Positions 2,896 through 38,483 of a stretch of 64,000 nt of DNA are shown piece by piece. Under the pieces are notes generated by a model that was given only the letters and a program-made list of their open reading frames with translations, was not told where the DNA came from and made no database searches. Source of the DNA: Rhodopirellula sp. SM50 (GTDB lineage: Bacteria > Planctomycetota > Planctomycetia > Pirellulales > Pirellulaceae); assembly GCF_002289565.1 (NCBI RefSeq), contig NZ_NTFY01000016.1:1-64000 (forward strand), given 5' to 3'. Every line of letters starts with the position of its first letter. Within the stretch, counting starts at the first letter, position 1. The translations under genes and the position numbers were made by a program.

Positions 2896-4206
2896 CTATT
2901 CGAAGGCGCGAATGCGAATGGCGCTGGCCTGGCCCTGCGGCGTCACGTTGACGTTGATGAACTGCTTGCCTGCGGCGGTGGAATCGTCCACGCAGGCGTT
3001 GATGGGACAATCGTCCGCCGGAGCGTCGCAATTGAGAATCGGAAACAGGTTCTCGCCGAGCGACTTCAAACTGGCGATCGTTTCGACCATCCCGCCGCCG
3101 GCACCCAGATTTCCGATGTGTCCCTTGGCGGTCGTCACCGGTGGCTGTTGAGCGACCGGCCCAAAGACGTCGTTGATCGCGGCGGCTTCTTGAGCATCAC
3201 ACTGGACCGTTCCCAACCCATGGGCGTGAAGGTGTCCGATGTTCGCTTTGTCTTCGTCACCCAAAGCGGCGCGCAAGACGTTGGTGATCGCCGCCTGGAA
3301 ATAACGCTCTCCGAACGCCGGACCGACGGCGCTGCTGCCGTAACCGACGATTTCACCCAAGATCGTCGCCCCGCGAGCCTGGGCGTGCTCCAGCGTTTCA
3401 CACACCATCGCGCCGGCACCTTCGCCGAGCACGCTGCCGTCACGCGTGGCCGTGAACGGCCGGCTCATCGTGGACGGATCCGCTTGATTTTTCGCCAACG
3501 TCTCCTGCATGTCCGCATGCAACGACCGCAGTGGGTGAATGCGCGAACCGGTCGATCCGACCAGCAACACATCGGCTTGCCCACGCGAGATCGTCGAATA
3601 CGCTTCGGCCATCGCCGCGCACGCCGAGGCTTCGCGCAACGTGATCGAATTGTTCGCTCCGCGCAGATCGTTGTAGATCGCCACGTGGCTGGCCGGCATG
3701 TTCGGCAGGTACTTCAACAACCACAGCGGATTGACTTCCGGTTTGCCGTGTTCACCCCAACGGTCAAAATCGAAGTTCCCGTCGGCGTCGATGCATTTCT
3801 GGATGCCCGAAGCAAACTCGATCGGCTGCGACATGATGTAATCACAGCCATACAGCACGCCGGTCCGATCGCGATCACGCTGGTCGACTTCCAAACCCGC
3901 ATCGGAGAGCGCCAACTGTGCGACCGCGACACCCATTTCGATCTCGCGGCACATCACCTTGCTGCCCTTGCGGATCGTCCGCTGCAGTTTCTTGTCCATC
4001 GGACCGTAGTCCGCGATGTCGCCGGTGAACTCAGACGCTTCAGCACCATAGTCGACCGACAGGACGCCTTGTGGGACCTGGGTCAACGGACCGATCCCGC
4101 TGCGGCGGGAACGCAAACCGGAGAGCAAACGATCAGAGTCGTTTCCGAGGGGAGTGACCACACCAACACCGGTGATGACCACTCGTCTGGACGTGACATT
4201 TACCAT
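2896..4206 (-). CDS. Beta-ketoacyl-ACP synthase family protein (FabF-like)
   Basis: This is a 436-residue thiolase-fold condensing enzyme. The N-terminus VVITGVGVVTPLG is typical of FabF/KAS-II. The catalytic triad is intact: Cys196 in ASACAAM, His329 in HAHGLGT and His363 in KGHIGNLGAGGG. The chain is somewhat longer than E. coli FabF, and sequence around the active-site Cys (LREASAC) differs from the usual housekeeping pattern, so it may serve a specialised acyl or polyketide-like chain rather than bulk fatty acid synthesis. It is the first gene of a likely two-gene operon with the malic enzyme. Start is the ATG at 4206, a few residues before the conserved strand. Confidence 0.88.
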   Translation of the reverse strand: MVNVTSRRVVITGVGVVTPLGNDSDRLLSGLRSRRSGIGPLTQVPQGVLSVDYGAEASEFTGDIADYGPMDKKLQRTIRKGSKVMCREIEMGVAVAQLALSDAGLEVDQRDRDRTGVLYGCDYIMSQPIEFASGIQKCIDADGNFDFDRWGEHGKPEVNPLWLLKYLPNMPASHVAIYNDLRGANNSITLREASACAAMAEAYSTISRGQADVLLVGSTGSRIHPLRSLHADMQETLAKNQADPSTMSRPFTATRDGSVLGEGAGAMVCETLEHAQARGATILGEIVGYGSSAVGPAFGERYFQAAITNVLRAALGDEDKANIGHLHAHGLGTVQCDAQEAAAINDVFGPVAQQPPVTTAKGHIGNLGAGGGMVETIASLKSLGENLFPILNCDAPADDCPINACVDDSTAAGKQFINVNVTPQGQASAIRIRAFE

Positions 4207-4291
4207 GAATCAGCCGAACGACGCGGAGCAGAAGGAATACGGGATGTCCGCATTCTAGGCTCTGGGGGAATTAGCAAAGAGGGGGTGTATC

Positions 4292-5557
4292 TCAGTAACG
4301 ACCGCGGTGGGGCGCCCCGAAACCGGCAGAAATCTGGGGGACCAGGGGGGTGGTCGTCAAATTGTCCGACGCCCGGCCACGAAACTCGATGAACATCAAC
4401 GCGTCGGCCCGGCCGGCGGTCGTCCCGGTCAGCATTTCCAAGTTGAACAGTGGCATCGCCGCCTGCGGCCGCTCGGGGCTGGCGATCACCCCACAGGACA
4501 ACAACAGAACCATGTCCGACGGCCAGCGAAACCGCTCGTGCAGTCGCCAGCTGACGACTTGGGGAACGTCGATTTTGGTGCGATGGACCTGAGCGTTGGG
4601 CAGCGGAAGATCCAATTCGACCGGTTTGAGCTGGTCGACTTGATCGATCGACGCCTTGATCACGCAATCGATCGCTGAACCGTCCACGCTCAACAGCGGG
4701 CTGATTTCCAAGCGGTAGCCCTCTTGGATTTCCCCCGTCTCGGGCTCATAAGGCGGCCAGCCCGTGGCGGCGGGTTTGACGTTTTGCACGTAATTGCGAC
4801 CGCGGGTGCTGGCCAGTTTTTCGGTTTGGCCGTTGTAGGTGATCAGATCGAGCGCCTGAACTTGGCGGGTGTCGGTCCGCTGACGCAACAGATTCAAGAC
4901 CAACGCCGCGTTCTCTTTACTCAGCAACCAGGCCTGAACGCCGGGTGAGTCCACGTTGACATGCTGCATCAACAGGTGGGCTCGCGATCGCCAGTTCGGA
5001 TTGCCGACCGTCATCACCCGCAACGACAACACCTGGGGATCTTTCTCACCGGCAACAAACCGGTCCACGATTCCCGAAACCACTCCGTGCATTTCGGGGG
5101 TGTGATACACCGACAATTGATCGCGATCGGCATTCAAAAAACCGAACGGCGACGTGAACCAGACGTCGGTTCCCGTTTCACGAAGCACCCAGTCGACGAT
5201 TGCCTGCTCGGGATGGTCATGTTTGGTCAGGTAACCGGTATACGGTCGCAAATCATAGATGCGGTGTTCCTGCCCGGCCGTCTGCGGAAGATTTCCGCCT
5301 CCACCGGCTTGCCCACCGGGAAGCGGTGTCGGCCGGTTCGGAGGAGAGGTCGGTTGATTTTGTAAACTCGGTGGCGTCCCCGCGTTGTCGGGCATGCCTC
5401 CAGCGGCAGCACCAGCACCGGTAGGACCAGACGGCCCCGTGCCGGGCAGCGGCATCCCCTGAGCATGAACCCGATCGCTCGATACGGAAAAGGCGAGGAG
5501 AAAAGACGCGATCGCTGTCGCAAGACTCGCAATGGATCGATTCGGACAAAAACGCAT
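4292..5557 (-). CDS. Exported secretin-like protein with Pro/Gly-rich linker
   Basis: The frame is open to 5800, but upstream of 5557 it only reads through the 87-bp repeats; the ATG at 5557 begins a clean signal peptide (RSIASLATAIASFLLAF, ending VHA). The 421-residue product has a Pro/Gly/Gln-rich linker (about 32-90), then a module with an N1-like helix-strand segment (VVSGIVDRFV), then a stretch reading YNGQTEKLASTRGRNYV and YRLEISPLLSVDG. That order resembles the N1-secretin pattern of type II/III secretion outer-membrane proteins. The fold call is inference; there is no neighbouring secretion gene. It is divergent from the VWA protein across the repeat spacer. Confidence 0.6.
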   Translation of the reverse strand: MRFCPNRSIASLATAIASFLLAFSVSSDRVHAQGMPLPGTGPSGPTGAGAAAGGMPDNAGTPPSLQNQPTSPPNRPTPLPGGQAGGGGNLPQTAGQEHRIYDLRPYTGYLTKHDHPEQAIVDWVLRETGTDVWFTSPFGFLNADRDQLSVYHTPEMHGVVSGIVDRFVAGEKDPQVLSLRVMTVGNPNWRSRAHLLMQHVNVDSPGVQAWLLSKENAALVLNLLRQRTDTRQVQALDLITYNGQTEKLASTRGRNYVQNVKPAATGWPPYEPETGEIQEGYRLEISPLLSVDGSAIDCVIKASIDQVDQLKPVELDLPLPNAQVHRTKIDVPQVVSWRLHERFRWPSDMVLLLSCGVIASPERPQAAMPLFNLEMLTGTTAGRADALMFIEFRGRASDNLTTTPLVPQISAGFGAPHRGRY

Positions 5558-6068
5558 GGCAGACCATCCCTGTAAGACGTGACGAACGGTTTCCTCCCGT
5601 CCGCTTCTTTGACCTTGGCTATAGCCGCCGCGCGGTCTCCAAGGCAAGGTGACTTCTGGTTTCTTTCCCACACGTCCTCCAGCGGGAAGCGTCAGCGAGC
5701 GGCGCGTGTGCAACGAACGTTCACCGCGCGCCACTGGCTCACGCCGCGTGCTGGAATCCGGCACCCCAGCGGGAAGCGTCAGTGAGCGGCGCGTGTGCAC
5801 GCACGACCACCACGCGCCACTGGCTCACGCCGCGTGCTGGAATCCGGCACCCCAGCGGGAAGCGTCAGCGAGTGGCGCGTGTGCACGCACGACCACCACG
5901 CGCCACTGGCTCACGCCGCGTGCTGGGAGGAAGGCTCCGCAACATCAGCCTGATTCAACGATTTCCACGCCCCCCGCCGCGGATGAACTTGCACCACATC
6001 CACCAGGGGGCGATAAATGCGATTCTTGTCGCCAGCGCATCTTCTCCGAACGCAACCGAATCGCTGAA
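5558..6068. other. Divergent intergenic region with repeats
   Basis: A 511-bp divergent spacer between the secretin-like gene and the VWA gene. Its central half consists of three palindromic repeats (5679-5926). The remaining flanks, 5558-5678 and 5927-6068, should hold both promoters, but I could not pick out convincing -35/-10 boxes. Confidence 0.6.
5679..5926. repeat. Three tandem copies of an ~86-bp palindromic repeat
   Basis: Units begin at 5679, 5766 and 5852 (periods 87 and 86 bp). Each starts CCAGCGGGAAGCGTCAG and ends ACGCCGCGTGCTGG; the two ends are imperfect reverse complements about 30 bp long, so each unit can fold into a long hairpin. Related copies lie at 21329-21391, 26851-26876 and 27019-27180. 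Translated through, they extend two neighbouring reading frames with an artificial Arg/Ala-rich peptide. Confidence 0.85.
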
Positions 6069-7724
6069 ATGTCCGAGTTGCCGAACGAACTCCCGTCCAC
6101 TCGCCAATCCCAGCCTTCGCTCGAACTCCCCACCGACTCGAACACTGATCAAACGTATCGTCATCGACTGCGTGAACTGGAACTGGAACTCGACAGGATC
6201 CGCTGCCAAGCCGACGCGGCACGACTGGACGCTCAAGCGGCCGAGTTGGAGCTGCAGATTCAGCGGCTCCGCGAAGGCCTCGAACATGACGACGTCGCCG
6301 ATCCGCAATCGGAGTTGCCTGTCGATCAGTCTGCCGGTTCCAATCAGCCAGCGATGGCCGAACCGCTCGACTCGGCGGATCGACCTGGTGATGCCTTCGA
6401 TTGTCGACGTAGCCGGCCGCCCAAATCCGCCACGATCTTTCACCGCGACCAAGCCGTCGCGGACGGGTCAGCGAATGAACCAAACCTAGCCCGGGGCGAT
6501 GCGGGGTCCCGCCCGAATCCCACCAACCGGCGGTTTGAAAACTGGAACCAGGTGCGAGACGCGCTCGGTCTCTCGGTCGTCGCCCCATCGGGTAGCGACT
6601 CCTCGTGCGGCGACTTACCCGGGAGTCATTCGCAGGACTTGCGAAAGCGGGGTTCAAAAAGAGAAGGCTCGCGGGTCGACCCCGCGCACAGCAAGCGGTC
6701 GCCATCGTCGTTCCCGTCGCCAAGTCTCGCGGGCGGGGCGACCGTTGAGCGGCGTCGGCGTTCGGATCCGGCGGAGAAGATTGATTTGGCCACGCGGGCG
6801 CCCGACCCGCCGCGGCGACGCAAACCCGCCGCTTGGGTGCTCAGCGCGGTGTTTCACGGCTTGATCTTGCTCGCCTTGGCGTTCTTCACGCTGGCATCGC
6901 CGCCACCGGGAGACCAGATCGCGATCGCCGGTTCGGTCGCTGAAACGGAAGAATTGGCCATCGAATCACTCTCGATCGAAGCCCCCGAACTGCCGCCGAC
7001 ATCGAGCGAACCGACACCGAGCGAGTTGGAGGCTGAGATCAGCGACATCGGGGAGATTTCGGTGAGCGATCTGATCAGCGATGCTCCGCCGGCACCACCG
7101 ACTCCGTTGATCGAGTCGATGATCCAGCGTGACGTGACCGGCATGACAGCGATGTCGTTGAAATCCGATTCGGATGCCACGATGAGTTTTTGCGGCGTCG
7201 ACGGCGGCGGAAACCACTTCGTCTATTTGGTCGATAGCAGCGGCAGCATGGGCGACGCGTTTGATTCGGCGCGTGCGGAATTGCTGCAATCGATTCGCTT
7301 GCTGACATCCGACCAGCGTTTTTATGTCATCTTCTTCGATGCCGAACCCGACTACATGCGACTGTCATCTCCCGACGAAGACGAGCCACGCAGTGTCTAC
7401 GCGACGGCGGAGAACAAGCAGAAGCTGCAGCGGTGGGCGATGACGATCAAGATGGATCGCGGCCGGGCGCCCTATGACGCCTTGCCGTTCGCATTGGAAC
7501 TGAACCCGGACGTGATCTTTCTGTTGTCCGACGGCGAGTTCCCCCAGCGGATCGAGGACATGCTGGGGGAGATCAATCGGATCGACAATCTATTCGGTGA
7601 CGACGGTCCGATCAGCATCGTCCACACGATCGGGTATCACAGCCGAGAGGGTGAGAGCCGGATGCGGCGGATCGCGAAACAAAACGGCGGCCAATACCGG
7701 TATGTCCCCAAACCGAACGAATGA
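6069..7724 (+). CDS. Membrane-anchored VWA domain protein
   Basis: A frame open from 5649 covers the palindromic repeats; the first sensible start is ATG 6069 (MSELPNEL), giving 552 residues. Order of parts: a charged coiled coil (about 30-75), a long low-complexity Arg/Ser/Pro region, one transmembrane helix at about 254-277 (VLSAVFHGLILLALAFFTLA), an acidic Pro/Glu/Ser linker, and a C-terminal von Willebrand A domain from about 380 with the MIDAS motif DSSGSMG and a later LLSDGEF. The expected topology is N-terminus in the cytoplasm and VWA domain outside the inner membrane, binding a partner through a metal ion. The partner is unknown. The divergent secretin-like gene is the only contextual hint. 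Confidence 0.75.
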   Translation: MSELPNELPSTRQSQPSLELPTDSNTDQTYRHRLRELELELDRIRCQADAARLDAQAAELELQIQRLREGLEHDDVADPQSELPVDQSAGSNQPAMAEPLDSADRPGDAFDCRRSRPPKSATIFHRDQAVADGSANEPNLARGDAGSRPNPTNRRFENWNQVRDALGLSVVAPSGSDSSCGDLPGSHSQDLRKRGSKREGSRVDPAHSKRSPSSFPSPSLAGGATVERRRRSDPAEKIDLATRAPDPPRRRKPAAWVLSAVFHGLILLALAFFTLASPPPGDQIAIAGSVAETEELAIESLSIEAPELPPTSSEPTPSELEAEISDIGEISVSDLISDAPPAPPTPLIESMIQRDVTGMTAMSLKSDSDATMSFCGVDGGGNHFVYLVDSSGSMGDAFDSARAELLQSIRLLTSDQRFYVIFFDAEPDYMRLSSPDEDEPRSVYATAENKQKLQRWAMTIKMDRGRAPYDALPFALELNPDVIFLLSDGEFPQRIEDMLGEINRIDNLFGDDGPISIVHTIGYHSREGESRMRRIAKQNGGQYRYVPKPNE

Positions 7725-32393: not shown

Positions 32394-32545
32394 GGCATGC
32401 TGTGCATGCCGTTCGTCTGGTAGGGCATGCTGTGCATGCCTTCTGTCACGCACAGCGTGACCTACTTGAGCTGTCACGCACAGCGTGACCTACTTGAGCT
32501 GTCACGCACAGCGTGACCTACTTGAGCTGTCACGCACAGCGTGAC
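32394..32545. repeat. Tandem TGTCACGCACAGCGTGACCT repeats
   Basis: Two copies of a GTAGGGCATGCTGTGCATGC unit are followed by four copies of a 28-29-bp unit centred on CACGCACAGCGTG. The two sets are related in inverse orientation. They fill the gap between convergent genes for the peroxiredoxin and the photolyase fusion. Confidence 0.88.
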
Positions 32546-35023
32546 CTACGCGAACAAGCTTTGTGGTTTCGCGGGTGCGGGGCGGTACGGCGGTCGGTCG
32601 ATCGTGTAGCGGCGTAGCAGCGTGCCGGCCAGGGCGACGCCACTCAAATAGGCCGCTTCGACTCGGCTGCCGCCGCACCAATCACCGCAGGTGCCGATTC
32701 CCGTGGTGGCGTCGAACAGGCATTCCTGGTCGAGCGGTTTTTCGGGCACGGCGTAACGCCACCGGTGTGCGGTCGCATAAAGCGGCTGCGTGACCGTCTC
32801 ACCGAGCAGCGACTCGAAGGCCTGTTGCAAGGTTTGCAGGACACGAGCAGGGTCGTCGTCGACATGCGTCTGCGACCATTCCGCCGACGCATGGATGACC
32901 CACGAAGCGGGCGCAGTCCGGCCGGGTTTCTTGTCGTTCCTGGCGATCCACGCGATCGGGCTGTTGTCGACAAACGCACCGTCATAGGGGACATCCGACA
33001 GCGACGGGTCGGCAATCATCACGGCCCAACACGGACGCATGTTGACCGAACGCACCGTCTCTGCCAATTCGGTATGGCCGCCGATCAACGCGAGCGTTTG
33101 CGTCGGCGGACAGTTGCACAACACCACGTCGAACGGTCCGTGTGTTTCGCCTTCCGTCGTTTCGATCTGCCATTGCCCTGCTGCCTCGGTCAAACGCGAA
33201 ATCGTTTTCCCCAACCGCAGCCTCAATCCTTCGGACAAATGTTTGGCGACGGCGTTCATGCCGGGGATGCCGAGGTAACGGGGCGTGTCATTTTTTTCGC
33301 CGAGGATCTCGCCTTGTGCATCCAGATGTACGATTCGACCCATCCAGGGTTCGACCAATCCGTCGTGAATCCAGCTGTTGACCGGTCGACAGAATCGTGC
33401 GTCTCGGGCCGTGAAGTATTGGGCGCCGTGATCAAACTGCAGCTCGTCCTTGGCGTCTGGGTGCGTCGTGCGGCGGGTGGCGGTCCGTCCGCCGACGCCG
33501 CGTGATTTGTCGAACACCGTGACGTCGATTCCGTGATCGGCCAGCGTCCGTGCGGCCGTCAATCCGCCGATGCCGGCACCGATGACTGCGACACGGGGAA
33601 GCGTCGCGGCGATGGGGCGGTCGACATGCCGGCGAAAACGTTGCAGATCGATTTGACTGGCGTGTTCCTCCACGCCGCGTGGACGGAGTTTGCCGATCAC
33701 CGGTTGCTCGGGCGAGAAGGGGCGATCGAACTGGCCGTAACACCAAAGCACGCCGCCGTAGGAGGCCGGGTTGCGACCGTCGAGCGAATAGCGGTGATTC
33801 AAATCCAACGTCAATTGAAGGGCGCGGGAGGGAGTGTCTAGCCAAGAAAGAAACGCTTTTCCCCAGGTCATTCGGACGTTGTTGTGCAATTCGCCATGTT
33901 TGAGCAGACTCCGCTGGGCGGCGTCCCAAAGTGGGCGTCCCGTCTTGGCCCGCGCCAGGGTTTCCCAACTGCAATTGGCTTCTCGCGGATCCCCTTCATG
34001 GCGGCACAGCGACTGCTTGGCCCAGTCCGGCACCGCGTCCAAACTGTCAACGATCTCGCGATGGTGAAAGCAATAGTGAAACGACATCTCACGCCAGGTC
34101 AGCAACTCGTCGAGAAACTTTTTCGCGTTTTGATGTGCCGCTTCCCGAGCGATGCGGAACGGGCTGACCATGCCGTAATGCAGGTAAGCGCTCATTCGGC
34201 TGGCGCCTTCGATTCGCAACGGGTCGTGGCGCGCTTGCCGATACTTTTCCAATCCGCGCGTTTTGAACGCATTCCAACGCGCATAGCCCGCGCGGGTCCC
34301 ACCGGGGGTGTCCGCGACCGGTGCGATTGAATGATCGATCCGGCACTGGCCGATCAAGGACGCCAGATCCACGTCCTGCAACGAGATCGGATGCAGGCCG
34401 AGTGACGACGTGAGCGTTTCGACGTCACACATGGGGACGTCGACCTGTTGTTGTTCGGGATAGGCCTTGGTTAACCGTTCGTCGTAGAGAGGTTGAGCGT
34501 GGCGGCGAAATTCAGCGGCGGAGGTGAATGCCTGATCGAGCAAGGTGACCGGGGCGACACACGAGCAGTCGACGGTGGCCACCGGTGTCTTGCAGGTCGC
34601 GACCAATCGATCCATCCAGCCGACGAGCGGTTGCACCGGCATCTCTTCGGTGATCAGACAGGCCGCCGCACGCGTCAGGTTCCGCAGGTACGGCCCACGT
34701 CGTCCTTGACGTTGCAAATGAAACGTGGCCGCGATGCCGCGGTCGGCCAGTTCACGTTGCACATCACGATGGCCCTGCAACATGAACGCGTGCAGTCGGT
34801 CCGAAGCGTACGGGTACTCTTCGCTGAGCCCGTGGTAGACCAGCAGCGGCAGTCCGTTTTGGCGGGCCAGGCAAATCGCAGCATCGAGCGCCGGGTTCTC
34901 GTGAGCACGCAGCGCGTTGTGCATCCAGTACAGCACAAACTGCCCTGGCTCGTACGCCCGCTCCTCGGGCGACGCCATCCAACGAAGACGCTCGGCAATG
35001 TGTTTGGGAAGTGCGGTGTCCAA
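32546..35023 (-). CDS. Fusion of class II-like photolyase and renalase-like FAD oxidoreductase
   Basis: An unbroken 825-codon frame. Residues 1 to about 465 form a photolyase/cryptochrome protein nearest class II: VLYWMHNALRAHENPALDAA at the N-terminus, SRMSAYLHYGMVSPFRIA, LLTWREMSFHYCFHHRE, then HGELHNNVRMTWGKAFLSW and NHRYSLDGRNPASYGGVLWC in the FAD pocket. From about 474 a second FAD/NAD(P) Rossmann domain begins (VAVIGAGIGGLTAARTL, then GVGGRTATRR), typical of renalase-like COG3380 proteins, and runs to the end (IGTCGDWCGGSRVEAAYLSG). The start is a TTG at 35023; an ATG at 34978 is possible. It follows hpnE by 63 bp on the same strand. Expected roles are light-driven repair plus a flavin reductase or oxidase step; the coupling is inference. 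Confidence 0.85.
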   Translation of the reverse strand: MDTALPKHIAERLRWMASPEERAYEPGQFVLYWMHNALRAHENPALDAAICLARQNGLPLLVYHGLSEEYPYASDRLHAFMLQGHRDVQRELADRGIAATFHLQRQGRRGPYLRNLTRAAACLITEEMPVQPLVGWMDRLVATCKTPVATVDCSCVAPVTLLDQAFTSAAEFRRHAQPLYDERLTKAYPEQQQVDVPMCDVETLTSSLGLHPISLQDVDLASLIGQCRIDHSIAPVADTPGGTRAGYARWNAFKTRGLEKYRQARHDPLRIEGASRMSAYLHYGMVSPFRIAREAAHQNAKKFLDELLTWREMSFHYCFHHREIVDSLDAVPDWAKQSLCRHEGDPREANCSWETLARAKTGRPLWDAAQRSLLKHGELHNNVRMTWGKAFLSWLDTPSRALQLTLDLNHRYSLDGRNPASYGGVLWCYGQFDRPFSPEQPVIGKLRPRGVEEHASQIDLQRFRRHVDRPIAATLPRVAVIGAGIGGLTAARTLADHGIDVTVFDKSRGVGGRTATRRTTHPDAKDELQFDHGAQYFTARDARFCRPVNSWIHDGLVEPWMGRIVHLDAQGEILGEKNDTPRYLGIPGMNAVAKHLSEGLRLRLGKTISRLTEAAGQWQIETTEGETHGPFDVVLCNCPPTQTLALIGGHTELAETVRSVNMRPCWAVMIADPSLSDVPYDGAFVDNSPIAWIARNDKKPGRTAPASWVIHASAEWSQTHVDDDPARVLQTLQQAFESLLGETVTQPLYATAHRWRYAVPEKPLDQECLFDATTGIGTCGDWCGGSRVEAAYLSGVALAGTLLRRYTIDRPPYRPAPAKPQSLFA

Positions 35024-35086: not shown

Positions 35087-36541
35087 TCAGTCGTGGCGGA
35101 TCAACCAGCGGGCGAGGCGTCCGGGGGGCAGGCCGGGACAAAGGTAGCGATTTGATGGGATCGAGTCCCGATTGGAATCGCGTCCAAGCTGCTGTGCGAC
35201 CGCCCGTGCCGCCAAGCGACCGCTGATCACGGCGCCTTCCATCGTGGCCGGCCAGCCCGTTTGCGTCCAATCCCCCGCCAGAGCGAGCCAGGGCAGTTGC
35301 GTGGTCGCAGCCGGACGGATCGCATCGACATCCGGACGCAATGAAAACACGCTGTTGGGGTCGGTGACCAGGCGGTGGCGCAGCAGGTTTGCGTTTCTGG
35401 CGGCCGGAAAGGCGTGTCGAAGTTCGGCCAAAACGGTGTCGATCAGTTCCTGTTTGGACCCCGAAATCGATTCCTTAGAGGCGCTGATCACTACCTGATA
35501 GTAAAATTGCGATGGCTCATCGGTTGATTTCGCGGCCGGCGGGTGATGCGATTCAAACGGGTCACGGAACAGCCACTGCGCGGTCGTGCCCACCATCACC
35601 GCATGATCCAACGCCGTGATGGGCGAATCGAACCAGAGATGCAGCCCCGTGATGGGAGACGACGGGATTTGCGAAATCGCGTCCACGTCCGGCAGCCGAT
35701 TTCGGTCCGCCTCAGGCCATCGGTCGAACAGTTTGTCGATCCGGTGCCAAGGGACGGCGCAGATCACGGCGTCTGCATCCAGGTCGCCTGATGCGGTGAT
35801 CACACGTGCTTCGGGGGTGATTTGCTCCACGGCGTGCCCGGTCCGAATCTCCACGCCTCGCCCGGTCAACACCGCCGAGAGCAGACGCCCAAACAGCTCG
35901 GCCAGCGGCACAGTGGGAACCAGTACATCGCTGGCACCGCGGGCGATCGCGAATCCGTCGATCAGCACCTTGCGGGCGGCAGCCATCGAGACATGCCCGG
36001 TCGTTTCTCCCAAAGCGCTGACCAGGATCACGTCCCAGAACTCTCGTACGCTGTCGTCGCTTTGACCAGCCTGGGCCAGCCACTGCCGGGCGCGGCAGTC
36101 CCCCAACACACGCGGCGGCGTCCGCATCAGTTTCCATAGCCCGCCGAGAATCTCGCGTTTCTGTCGGGCGGCGAGGTAGCGCTGCGCACCGATGGTTCCC
36201 AACAGGTGCAACGGCGGTGGCAGCCAACCGTTCGGTGCGAACCGACTCGGCGGATGATCGGGGTGCAAGAATGTCAGCGAACGGTAGCGTCGGAAGTGTT
36301 GTTGCAAACCACATCGATCCAGCATCTCGATCAAGTTGGTGCAGCAACCCATCGCGGCATGCTGGCAATAATCGACTTCCGCTTCCGTTTCGGGATCGAC
36401 GTAAGATCCGGCGCGGCCGCCGGTGATCCGTTTGGATTCCAGCAAGGTGATTTGGTCGTCGGGATGAACCCGCGAGAGTGTTTCGGCGGCGGCCATCCCG
36501 GCCAACCCGCCGCCGACGATCACGACACGCTGCCCCGTCAC
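35087..36541 (-). CDS. hpnE: Hydroxysqualene dehydroxylase HpnE
   Basis: A 484-residue FAD-dependent amine-oxidase-fold enzyme that reduces hydroxysqualene to squalene. It starts at GTG 36541, which overlaps the hpnD stop as GTGA; the frame continues upstream only inside hpnD. Marks: VVIVGGGLAGMAAAETLSR, the ITGGRAGSY dinucleotide-binding follow-on, an inner GALGETTGHVSMAA-like segment near 180-195, and C-terminal WLALAGDWTQTGWPATMEGA. The last step of the HpnCDE route, so it closes the squalene operon. Related phytoene-desaturase-type enzymes are the main alternative, but the context fixes the assignment. Confidence 0.9.
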   Translation of the reverse strand: MTGQRVVIVGGGLAGMAAAETLSRVHPDDQITLLESKRITGGRAGSYVDPETEAEVDYCQHAAMGCCTNLIEMLDRCGLQQHFRRYRSLTFLHPDHPPSRFAPNGWLPPPLHLLGTIGAQRYLAARQKREILGGLWKLMRTPPRVLGDCRARQWLAQAGQSDDSVREFWDVILVSALGETTGHVSMAAARKVLIDGFAIARGASDVLVPTVPLAELFGRLLSAVLTGRGVEIRTGHAVEQITPEARVITASGDLDADAVICAVPWHRIDKLFDRWPEADRNRLPDVDAISQIPSSPITGLHLWFDSPITALDHAVMVGTTAQWLFRDPFESHHPPAAKSTDEPSQFYYQVVISASKESISGSKQELIDTVLAELRHAFPAARNANLLRHRLVTDPNSVFSLRPDVDAIRPAATTQLPWLALAGDWTQTGWPATMEGAVISGRLAARAVAQQLGRDSNRDSIPSNRYLCPGLPPGRLARWLIRHD

Positions 36542-37518
36542 GCGCCGGCCTCGGTGACTTCGATCGGTGGCACGGGCAGACGATGAAAAATCGGCTTGAG
36601 GAAGTGCTGGGAAACGAGGCCGAGTTTCGTCGCGGTGCTCAGTTCGACGCGCCGCGTCGCGACCGCGCGGGGGTTTTCCGCGATGCGATCGAGCAGTCGA
36701 CGGTACGTCCGCCACATCATCGAAAACATCGGGCGGCCGTCGGGGCCGAGTGAATCCCAGACTTGCCAGCCGCTGACATAAAGTGCTTTGGCGCGACGGA
36801 TTTCGTCTTCGATCAGACAAACCAAGCGGTCGTCCGGACGCGGTTCCAACAGATCATCTTCGCACAAACCGTGTTGGGCGAAGTGCTGGCGCGGCAAATA
36901 AATCCGTCCCCGCTGGGCGTCTTCGGAAATGTCACGCAGGATGTTGGTCAGTTGAAACGCCAGTCCACAGTCGACGGCCGCACGCATCGGCAACGGGGCG
37001 TCGAATTCCCAGATGTGCAGACAAGCCAACCCGACGGCCGATGCGACCAGGTAACAATAATGTTCCAGTTGTTCGTAGGTGTCGAAACGCGTTTTCTGTT
37101 GGTCGGCCAGGACGCCGTCGACGATTTCCAACAGGTAGCGAGTGGGGATTTGAAACCGTCGCGTCGTGTCGCGCAGCGCCGGCATGATTTCTTTGGCGTG
37201 ACGAAACAGGTCGATCGGCCAATCCGAGGTGTCGTCGGCCAATCCCGGCGACAGCGGCACATGGTCCACCGGGGTGTCGCTGATCAGGTTCAGTGCCGTG
37301 GTTTGTCGCCACCAATCCAGCCAGCGGGTCCGCAGCGCCGCCGGTTCGTCGCAATCGCCGATGTCGTCGGTGATCCGAGCGAAGGCGTAGAGCGCGCACA
37401 TGGCGTTGCGTTTATCGCGCGGCAGCAGCCAAAACGAGCGATAAAAGTTGCTGCCGCTGCGGCGCGAAATGCGTCGCACCCGTCGGTAGCTGTCGGTCGT
37501 GATGGAAGCGGATCGCAT
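36538..37518 (-). CDS. hpnD: Presqualene diphosphate synthase HpnD
   Basis: A 326-residue all-helical prenyl synthase. Both Mg-binding Asp-rich motifs are present: FARITDDIGD near 47-56 and LTNILRDISEDAQRGRIYLP near 205. It joins two farnesyl diphosphates to presqualene diphosphate. The ATG at 37518 follows the hpnC stop by 2 bp and the gene overlaps hpnE by 4 bp, so the three are translationally linked. HpnD is told from HpnC by the second motif and by gene order. Confidence 0.9.
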   Translation of the reverse strand: MRSASITTDSYRRVRRISRRSGSNFYRSFWLLPRDKRNAMCALYAFARITDDIGDCDEPAALRTRWLDWWRQTTALNLISDTPVDHVPLSPGLADDTSDWPIDLFRHAKEIMPALRDTTRRFQIPTRYLLEIVDGVLADQQKTRFDTYEQLEHYCYLVASAVGLACLHIWEFDAPLPMRAAVDCGLAFQLTNILRDISEDAQRGRIYLPRQHFAQHGLCEDDLLEPRPDDRLVCLIEDEIRRAKALYVSGWQVWDSLGPDGRPMFSMMWRTYRRLLDRIAENPRAVATRRVELSTATKLGLVSQHFLKPIFHRLPVPPIEVTEAGA

Positions 37519-37520
37519 GA

Positions 37521-38483
37521 TTACAGTTTGCCGAGCAATGCACGCCCGACGAGCATTCCTTGTTTGATTTTCCCAACTTTGGGCCGGACACGCAGGACAT
37601 CGAAGTCGATTTCTCGAATCGCATCGAGCGTCGCCAGACCGCCGTGGGCGAACAGTTTGATGTCGCTGCGCAGCCAAGCGGGGACATGATCGACCAATGG
37701 CAATCCGCGATGGAAATAATTCTCGGCTTGGTCGCAGAGAAACGCGAGTGATTCTCGCAGGCCAGCGGGCGTGGACGGTTCGGCGAGCATCGACACGCTG
37801 ACGCCAAACCGCTTGCGAACGTCGGCGGGCAAGTAAATCCGGCCGATCGCGTGATCCCGCGAAAGGTCTTGCCAGAAATTGGCCAGTTGCAGTCCGGTGC
37901 AGATTTCGTCCGACAGGGCGGCCGTCGTCGGGTCGAGCGAATCGGCTAATTGCAGCACCAGGCGTCCCACCGGATTGGCCGAACGCGAACAATAATCGAT
38001 CAGTTGGGGCATCGATTCGTATTGTTTGATCTGTTGGTCTTGCCGAAACGCCGACAACAGATCATCAAAAGGGCGTTTGTCCAGGCGATAGGTCGCGACG
38101 GTGTCGGCCAAGGCGGGGAAGAGTCCCTCCGTCGGGGTCTGGCAATCGGTCGGGGCCCAACTGTCCGCTGCAGGCTGGCTGTCCGCTGCAGGCTGGCTGT
38201 CCGCTGCAGGCTGGCTGTCCGCTGCAGGCTGGCTGGCAAACAACCGGTCGATCTGGTGTTGCAAGCGGTCCAGGCCTTCCAGGGCGGTGCGTTCGTCGGC
38301 CGATTCGTCCGCGACATCGTCGGCGGTACGACAAAACGCGTAAATGTTGTAAAACGGTTGTCGCATTCGCCGCGGCAGTAAAATAGAAGCGACGAGGAAG
38401 TTTTCGTAGTGGGACGTGGCGAGCTGACGGCAATACCGGCGGCTTTTTTTTAACTCGATCGGCGGCGTGGTTCCGGACGACAT
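37521..38483 (-). CDS. hpnC: Hydroxysqualene synthase HpnC
   Basis: A 320-residue member of the squalene/phytoene synthase fold that turns presqualene diphosphate into hydroxysqualene. The motifs are FCRTADDVADE and LANFWQDLSRDHAIGRIYLP, the latter in the HpnC form. Inserted at about residues 83-107 is a run of four SQPAAD repeats encoded by an 18-bp minisatellite; it falls in a loop between early helices and is probably tolerated. First gene of the operon; its ATG lies 14 bp from the ispH ATG on the other strand. Confidence 0.9.
   Translation of the reverse strand: MSSGTTPPIELKKSRRYCRQLATSHYENFLVASILLPRRMRQPFYNIYAFCRTADDVADESADERTALEGLDRLQHQIDRLFASQPAADSQPAADSQPAADSQPAADSWAPTDCQTPTEGLFPALADTVATYRLDKRPFDDLLSAFRQDQQIKQYESMPQLIDYCSRSANPVGRLVLQLADSLDPTTAALSDEICTGLQLANFWQDLSRDHAIGRIYLPADVRKRFGVSVSMLAEPSTPAGLRESLAFLCDQAENYFHRGLPLVDHVPAWLRSDIKLFAHGGLATLDAIREIDFDVLRVRPKVGKIKQGMLVGRALLGKL
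38161..38235 (-). repeat. 18-bp in-frame minisatellite in hpnC
   Basis: Four copies of CTGGCTGTCCGCTGCAGG (plus-strand reading), coding for SQPAAD on the minus strand. Copies are almost identical, which suggests recent expansion. Confidence 0.92.

Follow-up and report, generated by a model that had tools for sequence, protein, structure and literature searches.

The class II cyclobutane pyrimidine dimer (CPD) photolyase of Methanosarcina mazei (2xry, 4cdn, 8oet) and the renalase of Pseudomonas (3kkj, 4zcc, 4zcd, 5krq) are the described enzymes closest to the two halves of a protein encoded by Rhodopirellula sp. SM50, in which a class II-type photolyase and a renalase-type flavoprotein form one chain. 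The fusion gene lies on the reverse strand of the window, meaning here the whole 64,000-nucleotide stretch that was analysed. Like the M. mazei enzyme, the fusion has the class II fold, the flavin adenine dinucleotide (FAD) site residue N403, the tryptophan triad, most CPD contacts and the Asp428/Arg441 bolt. It differs in that Trp431 is replaced by Phe and Tyr380 by Thr, in the window protein also Tyr345 by Cys and Asn257 by His, and in the attachment of a second flavoenzyme. That flavoenzyme shares its fold and hallmark residues with the Pseudomonas renalase, which is a free enzyme, whereas the renalase here forms the C-terminal half of a chain that begins with a photolyase. Human renalase (3qj4) has the same fold and presumably the same chemistry, but it is photolyase-free and only 20% identical.

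Two other systems invite comparison. In the Pseudomonas phrB-LitR-RudS light cluster a renalase gene adjoins a photolyase gene (10 of 20 loci), but the chains are separate, the photolyase is of the PhrB, non-class-II type and the renalase perhaps lies outside the light-inducible unit. Residue Y389 of the bifunctional CPD/(6-4) photolyase PhrSph98 is taken here to match M. mazei Tyr380. PhrSph98-like enzymes have been modelled on class II, and their tree includes a node at which Y389 is Thr or Leu (PMC9649867); neither 'fused' nor 'fusion' occurs in the text of that paper. The open-licence PubMed Central (PMC) literature yielded no description of a photolyase-renalase fusion and no paper naming photolyase and renalase together.

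It is proposed that the fusion is a bifunctional protein for the repair of light damage that combines photoreactivation with a renalase-type oxidation of NAD(P)H isomers, a proposal for which confidence and doubt are evenly balanced. What is seen directly is one chain with two complete conserved folds that pack together in the model, a single photolyase clade and neighbourhoods of light genes; both activities would follow from the chemistry of the two families. In support of the two-enzyme reading, each half can be aligned with characterised enzymes along its entire length. The sequence-only reading of this DNA had described a single unbroken 825-codon frame joining a class II-like photolyase to a complete renalase-type flavoprotein, and both points hold: the frame, which begins with TTG, is open throughout and has unbroken orthologues in other genomes, and the two enzymes are recognised by library, structure-sequence and model matches alike. 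An assembly or frameshift artefact is ruled out since intact orthologues occur in many assemblies. The Pfam library places DNA_photolyase at residues 30-98, FAD_binding_7 at 307-388 and NAD_binding_8/Amino_oxidase from about 480 (NAD_binding_8 at 480-539). Among sequences of solved structures, the N-terminal half matches the M. mazei class II photolyase (8oet/2xry) over 29-461 with 188 bits, and the C-terminal half, for which COG3380 is presumably the appropriate label, finds its best match in Pseudomonas renalase 4zcc over 476-808 with 230 bits. Structure matches to photolyases mostly stop at 467-471 and those to renalases start at 475-476, which bounds the linker. Measured against four relatives, dN/dS is 0.09-0.14 in the photolyase half and 0.14-0.22 in the renalase half (a fifth relative, L040, was saturated), and both halves are under purifying selection.

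A structure model of the whole window protein reached a mean predicted local distance difference test score (pLDDT) of 94.1 and a predicted template modelling score (pTM) of 0.93. A second model, of a fusion 47% identical to it from a record titled Desulfobacteraceae, gave 93.0 and 0.93 and is not independent of the first because the two alignments have most rows in common. A high pTM in a two-domain chain is, by general experience and with no negative control, taken as a sign of fixed orientation, and the halves are thus confidently predicted to be packed together in a fixed arrangement. The class II fold extends across the whole photolyase half, the best match being M. mazei 4cdn_A (Z 44.8, rmsd 2.2, 447 aligned residues, 29% identity), with other photolyase classes far lower at Z of about 31 or less. 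The renalase half has the renalase fold with its FAD site, matching Pseudomonas 4zcc_D with Z 44.7 (rmsd 1.6, 326 aligned, 38% identity) and the human enzyme with Z 35.8.

The residues of the photolyase half were counted over 96 fused rows, representing 93 distinct proteins or 85 at 90% identity, and compared with 42 single proteins; M. mazei numbering is from a printed alignment and equals that of chain 8oet minus 20. The photoreduction chain of the M. mazei enzyme runs Trp381-Trp360-Trp388 (PMC5885780), and its counterparts in the window, W387, W366 and W394, are kept in 96, 96 and 92 of the fused rows. The residues that contact the CPD in the M. mazei enzyme (PMC6126647) are likewise retained: R164, R256, E301, W305, M379 and W421 are all present in the window and found in 90, 96, 96, 96, 96 and 96 rows, respectively. 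The remaining contact, N257, is H266 in the window, with Asn at this position (N266) in 89 rows. N403, a residue of the FAD site (PMC9649867), and the bubble-plug residues are kept in 90-96 of 96 rows, bar the exceptions named here, and the strict Asp428/Arg441 pair corresponds to D433 (96/96) and R447 (95/96). The position of Trp431, F436 in the window, is Phe in 91 rows and His in five. The sequence-only reading had correctly noted YGQFDRPF in place of M. mazei GGVHDRAW, and had suggested from this divergence that the substrate may differ from CPD lesions. That suggestion finds no support, and an altered lesion specificity conferred by GQFDRPF was dropped, as the CPD contacts are retained and, in a survey of class II enzymes, Trp431 can be Phe or His whereas Asp428 and Arg441 do not vary (PMC6126647).

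Where the fusions depart from class II enzymes is around the exit of the photoreduction chain. Tyr345, described as the almost strictly conserved fourth member of the class II chain (PMC5885780), is C351 in the window and Tyr in only 44 of the 96 fused rows, as against 42 of 42 single proteins. Tyr380 is replaced by Thr in every fused row (T386 in the window), while 10 of the 42 single proteins have Leu there. Two residues from the Tyr345 position, a tryptophan, Trp353 (codon 33965-33967 in the window), is present in 82 fused rows and in none of the single proteins. The fusions are assigned to a class II-type clade rather than called standard class II enzymes because the Tyr345 position is not kept. 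The match of the window protein to TIGR00591 (phr2) over residues 10-465 reaches 288 bits, under the curated cut-off of 550; the genome's own stand-alone class II paralogue also falls short with 352.6 bits. The photolyase half most likely belongs to a divergent class II clade of CPD photolyases, and light-dependent repair is predicted for it.

The renalase half was judged by 29 hallmark columns, each at least 95% conserved across 45 stand-alone renalases. The window protein matches 28 of these, the exception being V584, which is Leu, and 70 of the 96 fused rows have lost none or one. Renalases are reported to oxidise 1,2- and 1,6-NAD(P)H, the human enzyme showing no activity on 1,4-NAD(P)H (PMC7660482). 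The renalase half is most likely a working renalase and a predicted oxidase of the same 1,2- and 1,6-isomers. It could instead have been repurposed for, for example, a flavin, deazaflavin or lipid substrate. Some fused rows do diverge at the hallmark columns, and the FAD oxidases encoded nearby, HpnE and the AOc14 family, have or may have substrates of other kinds, but the near-complete set of hallmarks in the window and the fact that the half's best structural matches are renalases with NADH or NAD+ bound make repurposing very improbable.

The fusion was found in 14 of 392 planctomycete genomes, including that of the window, with matches across both halves and no internal stops; the 14 carriers span eight families and, apart from the window's own copy, are 39-57% identical to it. 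A species-wide scan with the fusion alignment, one genome per species, gave 456 candidate stretches, 453 of which proved to be relatives; the best 80 loci, ranked by full-fusion match, were kept. All 80 have one open frame over both halves, two of them (L053 and L111) cut by contig ends; owing to the ranking, this count is no evidence that the photolyase never occurs unfused. The 14 genomes and these loci nonetheless bear out that the halves form one chain in many other planctomycetes. Altogether 93 distinct fusions were collected, from planctomycetes and from records titled Desulfobacterales, Myxococcota and Alphaproteobacteria, with the proviso that titles of metagenome-assembled genomes (MAGs) can be wrong. 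Two loci titled Kuenenia stuttgartiensis (L088) and Klebsiella pneumoniae (L092) carry closely related fusions that group beside the planctomycete Mariniblastus and are probably mis-titled MAGs. At L111, a short second fusion-like fragment (2280-2639) lies 1.4 kb from the fusion (4077-6395) on the same contig.

Outside the planctomycetes, only the seed genome had the fusion among 349 presumed Pseudomonadota and likewise among 198 presumed Desulfobacterota genomes (phyla judged by the seed-record titles; E up to 1e-20 in both searches). The best two candidates were scored per planctomycete and Pseudomonadota genome and the best five per Desulfobacterota genome, so that the totals of stand-alone photolyases and renalases are lower bounds. 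Among the matches scored in these 939 genomes of three phyla, all 16 photolyases of the clade are fused (14/392, 1/349 and 1/198); apart from the 61 that entered trees, stand-alone photolyases were placed outside the clade solely by lower identity or shorter matches. The window's own genome has three genes of the photolyase family: the fusion, the class II paralogue (L002) and one DPRP.

The two halves have different histories. In a quick tree of 40 fused photolyases, chosen by the authors from the 96 rows, and 43 stand-alone ones, all 40 fused sequences lie on one side of a branch with a Shimodaira-Hasegawa-like approximate likelihood ratio (SH-aLRT) of 97. Nearest to them is L116, a lone sequence on a long branch, followed by a stand-alone planctomycete clade that includes L002. 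Twenty further stand-alone planctomycete photolyases were fetched, two of which were too short and were dropped; the remaining 18, placed in a tree with 18 fused and the 43 stand-alone sequences, fall outside the clade and never have a fused sequence as their nearest row. None of the 61 stand-alone photolyases placed on trees is thus inside the fused clade. The photolyase gene of L116 has an adjoining upstream photolyase-like frame on the same strand, noted by eye, and lacks the equivalents of Asp428 and Arg441.

The renalase tree, of 40 fused and 46 stand-alone sequences, requires 15 label changes, at least five of them forced by starred branches, and pairs fused with free renalases in L064 and L197 (support 100), L060 and L186 (99) and L009 and L191 (97). 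A single clade of fused renalases was rejected when 33 of them were forced together (lnL difference 288; approximately unbiased test, p-AU 3.6e-63), in a test that left out seven divergent fused rows (L011, L012 and L014-L018) and 13 of the 46 stand-alone rows. The simplest reading of the trees is one old fusion that spread in part between phyla and that on several occasions lost its photolyase part but kept the renalase; repeated domain replacement or repeated fusion may also account for the pattern.

Neighbourhoods were compared by tblastn, since greedy calling of open reading frames (ORFs) missed several renalase genes in G+C-rich loci. Another photolyase or cryptochrome gene lies within 6 kb of the fusion at 24 of the 80 loci (734 kb of flanks; clustering gave 22 loci, and the tblastn figure is used), with a DPRP gene (PF04244) in 16 and a CRY/photolyase gene (PF00875 and PF03441) in 10. 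Neither family occurred in 19 arbitrary 20-kb planctomycete stretches (380 kb), which came from genomes chosen for long contigs, mostly fusion-free, and not from the 80 fusion genomes. Recurrent neighbours are genes for a short-chain dehydrogenase/reductase (SDR), DUF2867, DUF2805 and a Nei-type glycosylase. Two unnamed families, c7 (8/80 loci, e.g. L091:9672-10631) and c10 (9/80, e.g. L110:9400-9855), stand beside the fusion in light-gene clusters and match no Pfam (E 0.001) or NCBIfam (E 1e-10) entry.

Stand-alone renalases keep similar company. In Pseudomonadota, 20 of 53 renalase-only matches were examined, and in 10 of these loci the renalase gene adjoins RudS, a MerR/LitR regulator and PhrB, with HemH and SDR genes diverging; RudS, LitR, PhrB and HemH are presumptive names, given from gene order and recall. 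One locus (L180) retains HemH-SDR-renalase without PhrB, another (L165) has DUF2805 only, and eight of the 20 have none of the reference genes. Two of 20 planctomycete stand-alone renalase loci also have a photolyase-family gene: L191 has the order SDR-DPRP-renalase, and in L186 a class II photolyase gene lies at a distance of about 5 kb. Renalase genes were thus found as neighbours of photolyase genes elsewhere. RudS genes are reported to be common in light-responsive operons (PMC11417400).

These neighbourhoods, shared with other light genes, together with the interleaving of fused and free renalases and the rejection of a single fused clade, also speak for a reading in which two unrelated enzymes were joined merely so that both are made in equal amounts, sharing neither chemistry nor any link between substrates except light stress. 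Such co-expression alone is regarded as quite improbable, given the predicted fixed orientation of the halves and the lack of a stand-alone photolyase inside the clade, both among the 61 placed on trees and among the matches scored in the 939 genomes.

In the bifunctional repair protein proposed above, the N-terminal half would bind FAD, photoreduce it through the tryptophan triad and split pyrimidine dimers in the light. The C-terminal half would use its own FAD to oxidise 1,2- and 1,6-NAD(P)H to NAD(P)+, with electrons from its flavin most likely passing to O2, as in other renalases. The halves would be held side by side and made together within a light-stress gene set, and sunlight, judging by the chemistry of the two families, would supply both substrates. 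Several observations weigh against this proposal. In the flanks examined, 56 of the 80 fusion loci have no other photolyase gene, nor is there one near the 11 loci linked to squalene genes (L035-L045), and the same is true of 18 of the 20 planctomycete stand-alone renalase loci. The 10 loci from Pseudomonadota resemble a single conserved block and may therefore reflect one event. In Pseudomonas mendocina the light-inducible nine-gene unit with phrB and LitR starts at PME6650 (PMC9758184). Judged by gene order this first gene is probably RudS, and the renalase may therefore lie outside the unit. Four fusions (L015, L016, L017 and L018) have lost 7 to 15 of the 29 renalase hallmarks while keeping most photolyase residues, with truncation of L015 to its matched range adding to the losses counted. 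No reported activity for any fusion was found in the open-licence PMC literature. Finally, two independent activities leave unexplained why the photolyase clade is seen only in fused form.

This last point is addressed by a photolyase fed with electrons, in which a renalase flavin reduced by a dihydronicotinamide would supply the photolyase FAD, or the oxidised end of the tryptophan chain, and so keep FADH- available under oxidative light stress. Among the scored matches the photolyase clade is always fused and the renalase is often free, so any dependence would run from photolyase to renalase. The confidently predicted packing and the short linker of 5-8 residues would suit such a transfer, as would the remodelled exit of the photoreduction chain, with Tyr345 relaxed, Tyr380 changed to Thr and a new Trp353. 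Moreover, the renalase is attached at the C-terminal end about 20 residues past the position of M. mazei Tyr445, which sits 4.0 Å from Tyr380 (PMC5885780). Against this, the core tryptophan triad is kept, so that the fusion is no obvious replacement for photoreduction, and fusions with decayed renalase halves exist. Loss of W353 tracks that decay (Mann-Whitney p 0.008, raw), but the co-variation is treated as weak because the column ranks eighth of 116 and the signal is carried by few lineages. L015-L018 are natural test cases for dependence. The NADH or NADPH that the sequence-only reading had envisaged as donor looks wrong for the renalase family, human renalase being reported not to use the 1,4-forms (PMC7660482). 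Overall, the electron-fed photolyase is considered rather unlikely, and electron delivery from the renalase half to the photolyase flavin is possible but unproven.

Misreduced nicotinamides would arise from light and oxidative stress. In a built-in electron supply drawing on them, their electrons would reach the remodelled tryptophan exit, so that FADH- is kept ready while inhibitory NAD(P)H isomers are cleared. This version is regarded as unlikely; if true, it would explain why the photolyase clade is not found without a renalase partner.

Features of the fusion gene and of the adjoining squalene genes in the window
Feature	Coordinates	Strand	Basis
Fusion gene, class II-type photolyase and renalase-type flavoprotein	32546..35023	-	Library scans, frame, model
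Photolyase half, residues 1-470	33614..35023	-	4cdn_A structure alignment, model residues 2-468
Photoreduction-chain stretch W366, W387, W394 (M. mazei W360, W381, W388)	33842..33928	-	Residue conservation; roles from PMC5885780
Linker, about 5-8 residues (471-475)	33599..33613	-	Ends and starts of structure matches
Renalase half, residues 476-808	32600..33598	-	4zcc_D structure match, hallmark columns
hpnE, hydroxysqualene dehydroxylase	35087..36820	-	TIGR03467, 422.8 bits (cut-off 283)
hpnD-like presqualene diphosphate synthase	36538..37992	-	TIGR03465, 219.8 bits, best match, under cut-off 278.6
hpnC, squalene synthase	37521..38483	-	TIGR03464, 309.6 bits (cut-off 250)

Upstream of the fusion the window has hpnC, hpnD and hpnE, in this order and on the same strand. 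The gap between hpnE and the fusion gene is 63 nt, and hpnE probably begins later than its ORF does. The same order is found only in L035-L045 (11 of the 80 loci), titled Stieleria, Rhodopirellula, Roseiconus, Rubripirellula, TBK1r or Planctomycetales, and a universal operon with squalene genes was rejected on this count. Within hpnC, 38161-38235 is an in-frame 18-bp tandem repeat of 4.2 perfect copies that encodes QPAADS units. The 3' end of the fusion gene abuts a 28-bp tandem array of 3.8 copies (32443-32549), whose last CTA is the gene's stop codon on the reverse strand. The array contains the palindrome-bearing 20-mer GTCACGCACAGCGTGACCTA, which has 91 exact copies in the genome (51 forward and 40 reverse), often in short arrays, as against none for the reversed control. 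Judging by these copies, the GTCACGCACAGCGTGACCTA arrays form a family of elements like repetitive extragenic palindromic (REP) sequences.

It is still debated how photolyases keep their FAD reduced in cells exposed to oxidative light stress, and little work has addressed why bacteria keep renalases. With the two enzymes covalently paired and the pair conserved across many species, a single protein allows a direct test of both questions.

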